A DNA stretch of 20,058 bases from a virus. Numbering within the stretch: the stretch's first letter is position 1; each line of letters starts with the position of its first letter. This document shows, piece after piece, positions 3,115 to 12,798 of the stretch. The position numbers and the translations under genes are program-made. The notes below the pieces were generated by a model. It was given only the letters and a program-made list of their open reading frames with translations, was not told the origin of the DNA and did no database searches. The stretch is from the IMG/VR virus record IMGVR_UViG_3300030107_005590, positions 3,313 through 23,370 of that record; one strand, 5' to 3'.

Positions 3115-3377
3115 TCCTCCCTTTCATTTATTTCCCCAGCGATTGCAGCGTAGGCAGCCAAGTCTATGTAGCTATCTACTTTATGTGCATGCATTAGTCT
3201 TGCCACTTTAACTAATGCCATACACATCGCCACATCATGTGCAGATATATCTTTGCGGAGGAAAATAGACCACAACGCAGCGATGTTCTTATGATTGGTA
3301 AGCTTATCGCCATAATCATTTTGACGATCTTTACCTATTAATTCTTTTGCTTGTTCTAAAATGTTCTTTGATATCAT
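3111..3377 (-). CDS. DUF6378-like small helical phage protein
   Basis: 88 aa. The sequence DRQNDYGDKLTNHKNIAALW, followed by a helix-rich stretch (HDVAMCMALVKVARLM) and the ending VDSYIDLAAYAAIAGEI, matches what I know of the DUF6378 phage family. That family is all-helical with conserved Asp, His and Tyr. Its biochemical role is not established. The residues are loosely reminiscent of MazG-like nucleotide pyrophosphohydrolases, but I do not see a clear E-x2-E-x12-E-x2-D pattern. It sits between helicase and polymerase, starting on the helicase stop (TAATG overlap) and ending in an ATGA overlap with polymerase. A replication or nucleotide-related role is therefore likely by context only. Confidence 0.65.
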   Translation of the reverse strand: MISKNILEQAKELIGKDRQNDYGDKLTNHKNIAALWSIFLRKDISAHDVAMCMALVKVARLMHAHKVDSYIDLAAYAAIAGEINEREE

Positions 3378-5066: not shown

Positions 5067-5245
5067 CTCTTGTCCTCCAATCCTGTTGCATCGGGATGAC
5101 CCCAGTAATCCTTACGAAGTAGTTTAAAAAGTTGATAACATTTATCACAATAAAATTTATCTTTAGGATCTTCTATTACTGCAGGTTCCTTACAGTGCTT
5201 ACAACTTACAAATTCATCATCATTAGAATGGGATTTCACTTTCAT
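5063..5245 (-). CDS. Small zinc-ribbon protein
   Basis: 60 aa. Two CxxC knuckles, CKHC (Cys15/Cys18) and CDKC (Cys33/Cys36), spaced by about 14 residues predict a single zinc ribbon, followed by a basic helix (YQLFKLLRKDYW). I chose ATG at 5245 because GGAG lies 7 nt upstream of it. An in-frame upstream TTG at 5269 would add eight residues but has no such support. The start lies inside the primase 3' end (23-nt overlap), and the stop overlaps the next ATG. Small zinc ribbons in phage replication operons often bind nucleic acid or host transcription proteins. The exact role is unknown. Confidence 0.65.
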   Translation of the reverse strand: MKVKSHSNDDEFVSCKHCKEPAVIEDPKDKFYCDKCYQLFKLLRKDYWGHPDATGLEDKR

Positions 5246-6785
5246 CACTCCTCTCCTTTGGTAATTCAATTTCTTCTTTTGGTTTCTCTAACTCATGTAT
5301 CCACCAAAAGCGATAGTTTTTTCCATTTACTCTTCTCACTACAGTAGGATCGGGATATGTTTCTCCATCCTTTAAATCCCCAATTTCCTTATTATTAAGT
5401 TGCCTTATCCTTGCCCCAATTCTTGTAGCATCGAAACCTTTAAATCTCTTTTTATCTAAGAACTCTTCCAAATAATGCATACGAAAGTATGTCTTACCTT
5501 TTTCTGTAAATGTTTTACCTAATCGTATGACCTCACTAAAAGATGTGCCATCTCCTTGATCTAAAACAAAAGATTCCAAGTACTGATCAAAGCGACCCTC
5601 TACCCTTACATCTTCTGGCATTTCAATTATCTCTACCTTCTCAATTAAATCTTTAATTTTATTCATCCATTGATCACGGCTCACGGAATTAACAACAATA
5701 TTTATTTGATCAATGCAGGCTAAAATAAATTCAGATTGATTGTAAAGTTGACGTGTTGATAAACTTACTACCCTCCCATCCACACTAATAAACCAAACAG
5801 AATTATCGGATTGATATTTTTGTAGGTTAGAAAACTGATGTTCGTATGCATATCCAATTCCATATTCTCTTTTACGACATTCAATTGAATCACAGAATGC
5901 ACACATAGGTTGGTCCTTGCATTTGTATTGGTATTCTTGCTTGGTATGTTGATTAATTATCTTTTGAACTTGTTTATAATCTAATCGAGGATTGATATGA
6001 TTAGCATTAAAGTCAGAAACTTTATCTTCCCACCCTTCTTTCCACTTCTTTTTTGCATAAACTGCATAATGATATAAAGTATTATCTCTCCCCCCTTCTC
6101 CAACCCCTTGTTCCATTAATGTTTGTAAACAAGGTGGACCATCACTTAACTCATCTGATTTTAAGGCAACTTGTTTAGGTTGGATCTTGTTAATATCTTG
6201 AGATTTAATTTTGTGCTTATCGTAGAGAGAATAAAACTCGTCCAAAGTAGCAGCATTACCATTGTCCAAAAAACCATAACGATTACCATCATCACTATTA
6301 AAGTAAGGTAGATTAAGAAAGTTACCAGTGTCGCCACGCTCGGCATTAATTTTAATTTGTTTAGGAAAAACTTCACAATTACCGTATCCTAACACAGCAG
6401 CTAATTGGGTCAATTTATTTCTTAAATCCTCAGCACTAACAGGATCTTCTGTAAATAAAAATAAATGAGCGCCACCACTTTTAGATCGACATACAATAAG
6501 AGGAAGTTCTAAACTTCTTATTTTTTTTACAATTTTTAAATGATCGAGAGGATAAGTGTCAACATCAATACAACCCCAAGAACAAGTGCTATCATCTCTA
6601 ATGGGGATGATACCAAGACTAGGTTCCATACCCTCAAGATGATTTTTCCATAGTGCATCTGTAACAATATCTTTTTTAATATATGCATTACCACCCTGCT
6701 TTCCATTCTTTACATCTCCCGAATTGTACTGCCCATAGGCTCTTTCCAATCCTGAAAATATTTGTTTAAATTTTTCTATACTCAT
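5223..6785 (-). CDS. Archaeo-eukaryotic-type (AEP) primase
   Basis: 520 aa. The N-terminal AEP catalytic core shows WGCIDVDTY (Asp74, Asp76: the DxD metal-binding pair), CRSKSGGAHLFLF (Ser103-His107: the S-x-H motif) and CEVFPKQ (Glu138), then NFLNLPYF. The best match I know is the primase domain of phage and TOTE-type systems. Residues about 215-310 look like a PriCT-style helical region (RDNTLYHYAVYAKKKW) ending in a four-Cys cluster (Cys289, Cys295, Cys298, Cys303) likely to bind zinc or Fe-S. The C-terminal 200 residues are unrecognised. The last residues, SDESEIPF, mimic the acidic tip of bacterial SSB. It should make primers for the family A polymerase. A structured leader precedes it, and AAGG lies 7 nt before the ATG. 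Confidence 0.82.
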   Translation of the reverse strand: MSIEKFKQIFSGLERAYGQYNSGDVKNGKQGGNAYIKKDIVTDALWKNHLEGMEPSLGIIPIRDDSTCSWGCIDVDTYPLDHLKIVKKIRSLELPLIVCRSKSGGAHLFLFTEDPVSAEDLRNKLTQLAAVLGYGNCEVFPKQIKINAERGDTGNFLNLPYFNSDDGNRYGFLDNGNAATLDEFYSLYDKHKIKSQDINKIQPKQVALKSDELSDGPPCLQTLMEQGVGEGGRDNTLYHYAVYAKKKWKEGWEDKVSDFNANHINPRLDYKQVQKIINQHTKQEYQYKCKDQPMCAFCDSIECRKREYGIGYAYEHQFSNLQKYQSDNSVWFISVDGRVVSLSTRQLYNQSEFILACIDQINIVVNSVSRDQWMNKIKDLIEKVEIIEMPEDVRVEGRFDQYLESFVLDQGDGTSFSEVIRLGKTFTEKGKTYFRMHYLEEFLDKKRFKGFDATRIGARIRQLNNKEIGDLKDGETYPDPTVVRRVNGKNYRFWWIHELEKPKEEIELPKERSDESEIPF

Positions 6786-6802
6786 AAGACAGCCTTGTTT
6801 TG

Positions 6803-6903
6803 CGAGTCGTTGAGTGTATAAGTTTAAATGATCTCATCGTTGGATACCTATACACTCTAGTGAAGTGACTCGAACCTCCATGCCTTTTGGAACTTTCCAA
6901 CGA
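6803..6903 (-). promoter_or_regulatory. Structured leader between SSB and primase genes, possible pseudoknot
   Basis: The only long gap inside the replication operon (6786-6905) contains nested inverted repeats: CGAGTC/GACTCG (6803-6808 with 6867-6872) enclosing GAGTGTATA/TATACACTC (6812-6820 with 6849-6857). Eight bases in the loop (6837-6844) are complementary to 6896-6903 outside the stem, so a pseudoknot can form. The same outside bases can instead make a local hairpin (TTGGA/TCCAA, 6887-6900). No T-run follows, so it is not a standard terminator. It could be a cis-acting RNA regulating primase translation, an RNA-processing site or an origin-type DNA structure. Function is inferred. Confidence 0.45.
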
Positions 6904-6905
6904 AA

Positions 6906-7673
6906 CTAGAATGGAGTTTTTTCGTCTTGTTTTTCGTCTTGATCTGGCACTAACTTATCTTTTGCTACTGCCATCTCATCAGAAAAAGAACGAGCTTCTT
7001 TGACATGGTTATCACTTGAAAGCATAGAATCTATTTCTATCTTCCACTTGTACCATGTCTTATCTCCGCTTTTTGTCTTTTCTGTTTTCAATAAATAAGA
7101 ATGAGACCACATAGGAGGAGTGAAGTAAACACCCTTCGAATTTTGGATCTTCAAATTCTTCATCTTACTATTCCAATTTCTACTTGGAGTTAGTTGTGAT
7201 GACTTCATTGATATAACAGCCTGACTTGTCTCTCCCTTCCCACCAATTATCAAAACAAAATAATTTGCTGTCTCTTCAATGTAATTACCTGAATTATCAT
7301 TGGTGTAGTATTTATTATCCTCACCACGAACCGTATTATTCATGACTTCTTTGGATTGATGCACGTTTATAGGACCTTTAGCACCACTTCCTTGAGGAGC
7401 CCATTCAACATAAGTTTTATGGTAGATACAAGGAACCACTTTGACTCCTTGATCTGAAGGCCACCAGTCTCCTGTCACAGAATTAAATACGTGACCTGCT
7501 CTAAGAGCATCATCATTTTCTAATTCTGGAGACATGGCTTGTAGTAGTTTTAATCGAGGAAGTTGCAGATCGTCTGCATTCATATCCTCAAAACCAGTCT
7601 GTACATTTTCAAACTGATTCATAATTGCGACGGCTGAATTGCCCTCGTTTTTTTTCACAACTTGTTTATTCAT
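6906..7673 (-). CDS. Putative phage ssDNA-binding protein
   Basis: 255 aa. There is no catalytic motif, and the middle is beta-rich and aromatic (GDWWPSDQGVKVVPCIYHKTYVEW, split here as two adjoining strands; later TWYKWKIEID). The C-terminal tail is disordered and acidic, ending DEKQDEKTPF. An acidic tail with terminal Pro-Phe or Phe is the hallmark of bacterial SSB and, in looser form, T7 gp2.5, where it binds partner replication proteins. Its position between a coiled-coil protein and the primase fits a ssDNA-binding role. I do not recognise the fold directly, so this rests on tail and context. GAGG lies about 8 nt upstream of the ATG. Confidence 0.5.
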   Translation of the reverse strand: MNKQVVKKNEGNSAVAIMNQFENVQTGFEDMNADDLQLPRLKLLQAMSPELENDDALRAGHVFNSVTGDWWPSDQGVKVVPCIYHKTYVEWAPQGSGAKGPINVHQSKEVMNNTVRGEDNKYYTNDNSGNYIEETANYFVLIIGGKGETSQAVISMKSSQLTPSRNWNSKMKNLKIQNSKGVYFTPPMWSHSYLLKTEKTKSGDKTWYKWKIEIDSMLSSDNHVKEARSFSDEMAVAKDKLVPDQDEKQDEKTPF

Positions 7674-8249: not shown

Positions 8250-8275
8250 ATCTATTCTCCCACATTATCTTTTAT

Positions 8276-8304
8276 TATTTACTTGCATTAAATCTTATAG
8301 TCAA
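8276..8304 (-). promoter_or_regulatory. Candidate promoter for the leftward replication operon
   Basis: On the minus strand TTGACT (8304-8299) is followed after 17 nt by TAAATA (8281-8276), or after 19 nt by AATAAT. The -35 is good and the -10 only fair. The same stretch holds an imperfect dyad, ACTTG (8281-8285) against CAAGT (8302-8306), with AT-rich flanks that also match. This may be an operator serving both this promoter and the rightward SNF2-like gene, whose own promoter is less clear (TTGCAT at 8283 with a weak -10). Confidence 0.4.
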
Positions 8305-8327
8305 GTAATAAAATAAATTAATTAATT

Positions 8328-11937: not shown

Positions 11938-12798
11938 TCAAACACCACACATACCTTCGCATACATTATCAAACATATTGTATTGTTCTTTTTTTGGTTT
12001 GAACTTTACCTGGTCGAGTGGTTGTGCTGACCTATGTAAAAATAATTTATCTTTTACATTTCGTGATCCATGTCTAATCTTTTTATCAAAGTCCACAGCG
12101 TCCGCAAATTCTTCCGGGCGATTGTCTTTCATGTCTTGCCAATGCGCATCATCGTGAAATGGACAACAGATACACGCTGACTTCGTGGGTTTTTTATGTC
12201 CACGTTTCTCAAACCAATCTTGGCATTGTCTCCGGTTAATGTTTAATTCAAGTAAGGGCCAACGATTAATAATGTATTTATCTCTCGCTGGTTTCATTCT
12301 TGCTATCTCATCTGTTGAGATTCCTATCCATTGTTCTACCCATACATTTTTTTTAACGTGTTTGTAGTATCCTACACCTAATAACTCACGAATTTTTTTT
12401 CTAATTGGTTGGATCTTATAATCATTTGTACATTGACGCATAAGCATTCCTTTTTTCCCTGTCTCTGCATTGACTGTAAAGAACGGAGCTGTCGGGAATC
12501 TTGTCCCATGGTCCACGGAACTGACCATATCATCTCGGATGTTTCCTTTCATTACTCGGTATACCGGAAATGGTAATTGCTTCTCTAACCAATTTAAATA
12601 TTCATATACATCAGGTGGTTCGTATCCTGTGTCGGCAAAAATTGCACAATCTGGCATAGGTCGTATGTGTCCCTCTGCCGCCATCATTGCCATGGTTGAT
12701 GATTGAACCCCAGCTCCAAGTGATAAGACTATAAGTTTAGGTGTCTTGTCGTGTTGTGGTAGTAATGTACCGAAGTATTTATCTTTAGTAAGATCCAT
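11938..12798 (-). CDS. PP-loop ATPase, PAPS-reductase-like
   Basis: 286 aa. The N-terminal nucleotide-binding PP-loop reads LSLGAGVQSST (25-35), a Gly-Ala variant of SGGxDS, followed by FADTGYEP (54-61). This places it in the adenine-nucleotide alpha-hydrolase superfamily (PAPS reductase, DndC, TtcA, QueC relatives). The Cys residues RQC (123) and ACICCPFH (209, 211, 212) could hold an Fe-S cluster or act as sulfur carriers. A classical PAPS reductase has a C-terminal ECG motif, which is missing, so assimilatory sulfate reduction is unlikely. Thiolation or another modification of DNA, RNA or a small molecule fits better. It overlaps the upstream gene by 14 nt and is followed by the oxygenase. 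Confidence 0.8.
   Translation of the reverse strand: MDLTKDKYFGTLLPQHDKTPKLIVLSLGAGVQSSTMAMMAAEGHIRPMPDCAIFADTGYEPPDVYEYLNWLEKQLPFPVYRVMKGNIRDDMVSSVDHGTRFPTAPFFTVNAETGKKGMLMRQCTNDYKIQPIRKKIRELLGVGYYKHVKKNVWVEQWIGISTDEIARMKPARDKYIINRWPLLELNINRRQCQDWFEKRGHKKPTKSACICCPFHDDAHWQDMKDNRPEEFADAVDFDKKIRHGSRNVKDKLFLHRSAQPLDQVKFKPKKEQYNMFDNVCEGMCGV

Follow-up and report, generated by a model that had tools for sequence, protein, structure and literature searches.

In the preQ1-II riboswitch, which we take to be Rfam family RF01054, a hairpin loop is paired to a strand farther downstream, with a third stem inserted ahead of the latter. The strands of HDV ribozymes follow the order P1 P2 P1' P4 P4' P2'. 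A table of riboswitch classes describes preQ1-II as an HLout pseudoknot (PMC11625349). Among phages, the operator of T4 gene 32 is a single pseudoknot of about 28 nt that precedes gene 32 itself. Binding of gp32 is nucleated at this pseudoknot, and the protein then spreads over a 3' segment that has less structure and holds UUAAA/UAAA and the ribosome site (PMC535899). Permuted hammerheads with two pseudoknots also exist (PMC10085705). Compared with the T4 operator, the leader described here extends over about 100 nt, contains two pseudoknots and lies after a gene for an SSB-like protein and before a primase gene.

The locus lies in a window of 20,058 nucleotides, which is part of a 23,370-base virus record (IMG/VR record IMGVR_UViG_3300030107_005590, positions 3,313 to 23,370). 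On the minus strand, which encodes both flanking genes, a gap of 120 nt separates the SSB-like gene (6906-7673; Pam3 gp34-like, PF23977/phrog_2402), with its TAG stop codon at 6906-6908, from the gene for an AEP-family primase (5223-6785; PF22548 AEP domain, phrog_21866). A homologue of the SSB-like protein in Pseudomonas phage Lydia (H36) carries the annotation ssDNA-binding protein, and the residues PF stand at the C-terminus of all 12 aligned SSB-like proteins, including that of the window (...KTPF), a tip that resembles that of bacterial SSB. PF tips are found on both proteins encoded here (KTPF, 6906-6917, and ESEIPF of the primase, 5223-5243, both on the minus strand), as if the SSB-like protein and the primase could use one SSB-tip-binding partner. 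Genes for a helicase and a family A DNA polymerase follow the primase in the same direction, and what looks like a polycistronic replication mRNA is the likely context of the leader RNA. Elsewhere in the window, a short divergent intergenic region (8250-8327) between a Pam3 gp33-like gene (minus) and an SNF2-type helicase gene (plus) is a likely divergent promoter site, and a gene at 11938-12798 (minus) matches phrog_424, phosphoadenosine phosphosulfate reductase, a gene of auxiliary metabolic or host-takeover type.

Covariation and anatomy together show a predicted fold of two interlocked pseudoknots for the leader RNA between the SSB-like gene and the primase (all coordinates below are on the minus strand). 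The long-range helix a has its 5' strand at 6896-6903, 2 nt past the SSB-like stop codon, and pairs over 8 bp with a' (6837-6844) inside the loop of the hairpin P4, as supported by a swap test and subfamily alignments. P2, which was located by the swap test, subfamily alignments and hand registration, joins UGGAG (6876-6880) to CUUCA (6861-6865). P3 (6 bp) and P4 (11 pairs) were defined by the alignments: the 5' strand of P3, CGAGUC (6867-6872), is located within the P2 loop and its 3' strand is at 6803-6808, while P4 pairs 6847-6857 with 6812-6822. The P2'/P4 junction is CUA (6858-6860), and a 17-nt spacer (6786-6802), outside the fold, leads from P3' to the primase AUG. With P2 as b, P3 as c and P4 as d, the strands run in the order a b c b' d a' d' c'; P2 and P3 form an H-type pseudoknot with P4 in its third loop, and the P4 loop pairs in turn with the strand leaving the SSB-like stop codon. 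An earlier, sequence-only reading of this DNA had described two nested stems of 6 and 9 bp, which are both present, P4 being extended by one G.U and one G-C pair; it had overlooked P2, which holds the 5' strand of P3 in its loop and makes the fold a double pseudoknot. The same reading had called the element a primase leader. It does precede the primase, and it is equally the 3' UTR of the SSB-like gene: in 22 of 25 leaders the first base of helix a lies 0-5 nt past the SSB-like stop codon, and in the other three the helix can reach 2 nt into that codon. Of 32 relatives measured, 31 have the end of P3' 15-19 nt ahead of the primase AUG, and L116 has it 23 nt ahead, so the fold fills the space from the SSB-like stop to about 17 nt before the primase AUG with little slack.

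The structure was evaluated by comparison with relatives. In a structure-blind MAFFT alignment of 25 leaders (24 distinct), 97.9% of the P3 and P4 cells were paired, two-sided changes occurred in 15 of 18 pairs, and covariation reached 0.794 against at most 0.114 with slid partners; RNAalifold recovered both helices unprompted. Further pair types, one of five measures, were not above shuffles in this alignment (31 against a mean of 31.7). Because this alignment puts helix a and P2 out of register from one subfamily to the other, these helices were judged by the swap test, by separate subfamily alignments and by hand registration. Helix a forms 8-15 bp in all 25 leaders, and in ten representatives its own partners beat swapped partners at p=5e-5, which upholds the complementarity between the P4 loop and the upstream segment that the sequence-only reading had reported; for P2 the same test gave p=0.004, less strong than for helix a. 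Within subfamily 2 (15 leaders, 13 distinct), the paired cells amounted to 97.2% for helix a, 92.3% for P2, 100% for P3 and 98.6% for P4, and further pair types were likewise not above shuffles. Within subfamily 1 (13 leaders), the corresponding values were 97.7%, 66.7%, 100% and 99.4%, the low P2 value being ascribed to MAFFT registration, and every shuffle was exceeded on all five measures. In all these alignments the structures counted were read off the same sequences, and kinship alone can push values above shuffles. The two-sided changes and the slid-partner controls are the stronger argument for structure than the shuffle comparison. Hand registration of eleven representatives placed P2 in all of them, imperfectly in L126, with a G.U wobble kept at one fixed position in 11 of 11, the U of which lies in the 3' strand of P2; P2 nevertheless is the weakest helix, more weakly supported than a, P3 and P4. 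The A-G at the P2/P4 junction and the CA after P3' (6801-6802 in the window) are invariant in the 25-leader alignment.

Eight leaders (L099, L101, L102, L103, L104, L105, L116 and L126) carry an extra segment in the P4 loop between a' and P4', which can form a small hairpin in several of them. At the nucleotide level, the leader is 92.5% identical to that of the relative L004, and third codon positions are 75% identical in the SSB-like gene and 65% in the primase (5400-6785); of all 120-nt windows in the surrounding alignment, 5.2% equal or exceed the leader in conservation. The comparison of homologous leaders that the sequence-only reading had recommended thus finds the stems conserved and compensated, and its view of a cis-acting structured RNA with a pseudoknot is borne out by a conserved fold that is probably cis-acting. 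Folding energy, which it had also proposed to compare with shuffled sequence, gave a divided result: the whole leader is mildly unusual (z=-1.84; 9 of 200 shuffles as good), and the P3-P4 part is better (z=-3.81; 1 of 200), with z from -2.37 to -6.54 for this part in five relatives, where the L104 and L126 segments were without all or part of P3'. As the single-sequence energy is only mildly unusual, one sequence alone is insufficient, and it is the comparison with relatives that settles the structure.

A mutually exclusive switch, in which the outer segment would alternatively form its own hairpin, is not supported by this comparison. The alternative pairing can indeed be drawn in the window (TTGGA...TCCAA, 6887-6900, with 6896-6900 pairing 6887-6891), and 48.5% of shuffles of the window's linker are as good, so that it stands at chance level. 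Across the 25 leaders the local competing pairing was reached by 9-93% of 200 linker shuffles, and in none did it clearly beat shuffled linkers. Nor is the hairpin family-wide: the TTGG/CCAA type is the best local pairing in 8 of the 25 leaders, all of subfamily 1, while the remaining 17 allow different local pairings of 4-7 bp. Three further candidates were rejected. A tRNA or tmRNA mimic had been prompted by GGTTCGAGTC, a stretch that includes a P3 strand, and ARAGORN found none in the window. A small leader ORF, in the frame read from ATGGAGGTTCGAG, looks open in some members, and a 2-nt indel between close relatives breaks the frame. A CTAGT/ACTAG pairing across the SSB-like stop codon is broken in L056 and L131, where the stop is TAA.

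Relatives were collected from IMG/VR (52 loci with the primase as query, 49 with the SSB-like protein) and through an alignment query that covered the best 80 of 292 relatives, with three genome contigs besides. Among the junctions inspected, the clade around the window shows the same fold at the same junction, often in quite different sequence. A covariance model of P3 and P4 only, built from 25 leaders, matched 33 of the 38 loci of this clade (33 distinct contigs; bit scores 89-109), 25 of these matches being training leaders by construction and the other eight near-copies, and the model adds no distant member; the five clade loci that it missed carry a stem and a U-run instead. Across 49 whole records, 29 gave one strong match each (E below 1e-19), located at the SSB-like/primase junction, and apart from these there were four marginal matches (E 0.19-0.74). 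No credible match was obtained in 26 loci with other junction types, which include phages DSL-LC04 and 023Pt_psg01 (one at E=1.9). Three pattern searches were also performed. The first returned 6 stretches, all within the clade; the second returned 42, 36 of them outside the clade, six of which were inspected by eye, and none of the 36 matched the covariance model at E<=1; the third returned 8, all in contigs already known as carriers. A distant DNA search of phage records yielded only a chance 19-nt match in two records, and further queries (one of them covering the best 80 of 292 relatives) added no new leaders other than that of one MAG contig. This contig (L220, JAHEGS010000035.1) is binned as a Bacteroidetes MAG and contains the pseudoknot together with phage genes; it is probably a misbinned phage contig rather than a case of a host gene. 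In the sequences searched, the fold was found only at this junction.

The slot between the two genes is filled differently in other relatives. The five loci of the clade that the model missed (L108, L114, L119, L121 and L130) are terminator-like, with a stem and a U-run in the place of the pseudoknot. In a tree of the SSB-like protein (37 rows), these five form one clade (98/95), which groups with pseudoknot subfamily 2 (90/96, below the star of the tool). Both the tree and its bootstrap range require two changes for the pseudoknot type, and the starred branches alone force only one and are compatible with a single pseudoknot origin and no replacement; the simplest account, which is not proven, is either that a terminator replaced the pseudoknot once or that the pseudoknot was gained twice. 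A census by script of the loci named in it, with 72 distinct gap sequences, counted 25 pseudoknots, 19 stems followed by four or more U in a row, 19 stems without such a run, 8 gaps of less than 25 nt and 1 other, with three loci unclassed (L105, L046 and L118). Correction by eye gave 26 pseudoknots, 26 stems with a U-run, 14 stems without one, 7 gaps of 0-17 nt and 1 other (L050). In this correction, L105 became a pseudoknot member and L046 a stem with a U-run; TTTT was seen immediately past a GC stem in L007, L008, L009, L010 and L191; and L184 and L188 have a stem and a U-run, where the script had taken a GTG inside the stem as the start. The L118 junction is cut off in the census. At the junctions of DSL-LC04 and 023Pt_psg01 (L236:2453-2472 and L237:1757-1778), a GC-rich hairpin is present without a following run of 4 U. 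In relatives farther removed, the junction holds a GC-rich hairpin, which a U-run follows in some and not in others, or there is hardly any gap, as in the 7 distinct sequences of 0-17 nt. Related phages thus serve one and the same slot in four ways: with a double pseudoknot, with a hairpin that resembles a terminator, with a plain hairpin or with next to nothing.

The terminators of the relatives resemble the element of the window in that they occupy the same slot between the same two genes and contain a stem, and GCAU follows this stem in L108 and L114 as it follows P3' in 15 of the 25 pseudoknot leaders. The window differs in its covarying double pseudoknot and in having no U-run: no U is found in the 10 nt after P3', and no intrinsic terminator was called in the leader. 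Among other pseudoknot leaders, U makes up 7 of these 10 nt in L109 and L111, and 6 in L104. The missing U-run speaks against simple intrinsic termination in the window, where transcript-end protection, a pause or a barrier to reinitiation would be the remaining modes. We suggest, with a probability of about 0.42, that the RNA is a cis-acting intercistronic element that separates the expression of the SSB-like gene from that of the primase and can be replaced by a terminator. As a rigid block between the terminating ribosome and a point about 17 nt before the primase AUG, it would act as an expression divider: it would protect the SSB-like message against decay on its 3' side, and by impeding read-through of RNA polymerase, reinitiation of ribosomes or both, it would lower or time the output of primase. 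The terminator-like hairpin of the sister clade and the GC-rich hairpins of distant relatives would do the same job. A ribosome on the stop codon is expected to cover helix a with its footprint, so that folding of the leader would probably depend on translation of the SSB-like gene. The near-gapless relatives indicate that the function of the element is not universal. In addition, a passive barrier needs no sequence conservation, and the conserved core therefore counts against a purely passive divider; the kept G.U in P2, the A-G at the P2/P4 junction and the CA after P3' may rather be hints of specific recognition.

Such recognition is central to an operator model, in which the SSB-like protein or the primase would bind the pseudoknot, spread over the A/U-rich start and repress the primase. 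The upstream gene is SSB-like, the conserved core residues suggest recognition, and the order of parts is that of T4: a phage pseudoknot adjoining an ssb gene, then a spacer outside the fold leading toward the primase start, with a UUUAAA start region. However, the T4 element precedes the ssb gene whereas this one follows the SSB-like gene and precedes the primase, UUUAAA falls within conserved primase codons, and the terminator-type clade retains the SSB-like gene without the pseudoknot, so that we consider the operator model rather doubtful. Translation coupling, in which the fold would bring the SSB-like stop near the primase start for terminating ribosomes to reinitiate, accords with the tight span of the fold, which reaches from the stop codon up to a point 15-19 nt short of the AUG, and with the spacers, where by eye Shine-Dalgarno-like motifs occur only in some members and inconsistently; relatives with a short hairpin or almost no gap need no bridging fold, and this reading seems decidedly unlikely. 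Classic sequestration is unsupported, since the Shine-Dalgarno region is not inside the fold and purine-rich motifs, where there are any, lie in the spacer after P3'.

The preQ1-II riboswitch also is an HLout pseudoknot with an embedded stem and shares the strand order of the leader, in which P2 is the weakest helix; a ligand-binding riboswitch of this topology might be imagined. The leader differs from preQ1-II in an additional strand upstream that pairs with the embedded hairpin's loop, in a Shine-Dalgarno that is not buried, P3' ending 15-23 nt before the AUG, and in its place between SSB-like and primase genes of phages. With few invariant unpaired bases, replication genes on both sides and no listing of the preQ1-II model at E<=10 for the window or L120 leader, we regard a riboswitch as very unlikely. 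A self-cleaving ribozyme that would separate the two messages is harder still to credit. Interlocked pseudoknots are common in ribozymes, the permuted hammerheads cited above have two of them, and the order P2 P3 P2' P4 P4' P3' of the leader resembles that of HDV-like ribozymes. Unlike these, the leader has an additional helix a/a' and is without a hairpin at the HDV P3 position, where 0-1 nt separate the corresponding strands in 11 representatives; the CUGAnGA core of hammerheads, permuted forms included, is absent from the 32 pseudoknot leaders searched, all of the 33 but L105, and no Rfam ribozyme match appeared in the searches run. An element acting as DNA, such as a replication origin or a protein-binding palindrome, would suit a site among replication genes, and is the most improbable of these explanations. 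In the subfamily 2 alignment 56 of 455 cells are G.U and none is A.C, which points to selection on the sense-strand RNA rather than on DNA; subfamily 1 has 45 G.U cells and 5 A.C cells, all five in P2, where MAFFT registers badly.

Searches of Rfam 15 at the gathering score gave no match for the window or for the loci of seven relatives, and when matches with E as high as 10 were admitted, the leaders of the window and of L120 gave only implausible ones of low score, in agreement with the sequence-only reading, which had named no matching riboswitch family. Among the papers retrieved by searches of the open-licence PMC literature, none describes such an element in its title or the start of its abstract. 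Absence from Rfam and from the literature searched is not proof of absence in print; the element constitutes a new family of structured RNA, and its general kind is known.

An RNA family found neither in Rfam 15 nor in the papers searched is thus accompanied by clean covariation for two interlocked pseudoknots, and its carriers are uncultured phages in which it sits among the replication genes. The double pseudoknot probably sets the amount of primase relative to the SSB-like protein. By analogy with gp32, the SSB-like protein might recognise the double pseudoknot with which its own message ends and, as long as ssDNA does not titrate it away, spread onto the neighbouring start site and shut off the primase. 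Although we hold this to be unlikely, it would, if true, define a new class of phage regulatory RNA, one that reads out the state of replication, and the clades without the RNA would have swapped this control for a fixed terminator. If a replication protein does bind, the problem that phage T4 solves with the gene 32 operator would have been solved a second time, by this leader. As a natural experiment, the four junction types let the role of a structured intercistronic RNA in replication-protein ratios be tested.
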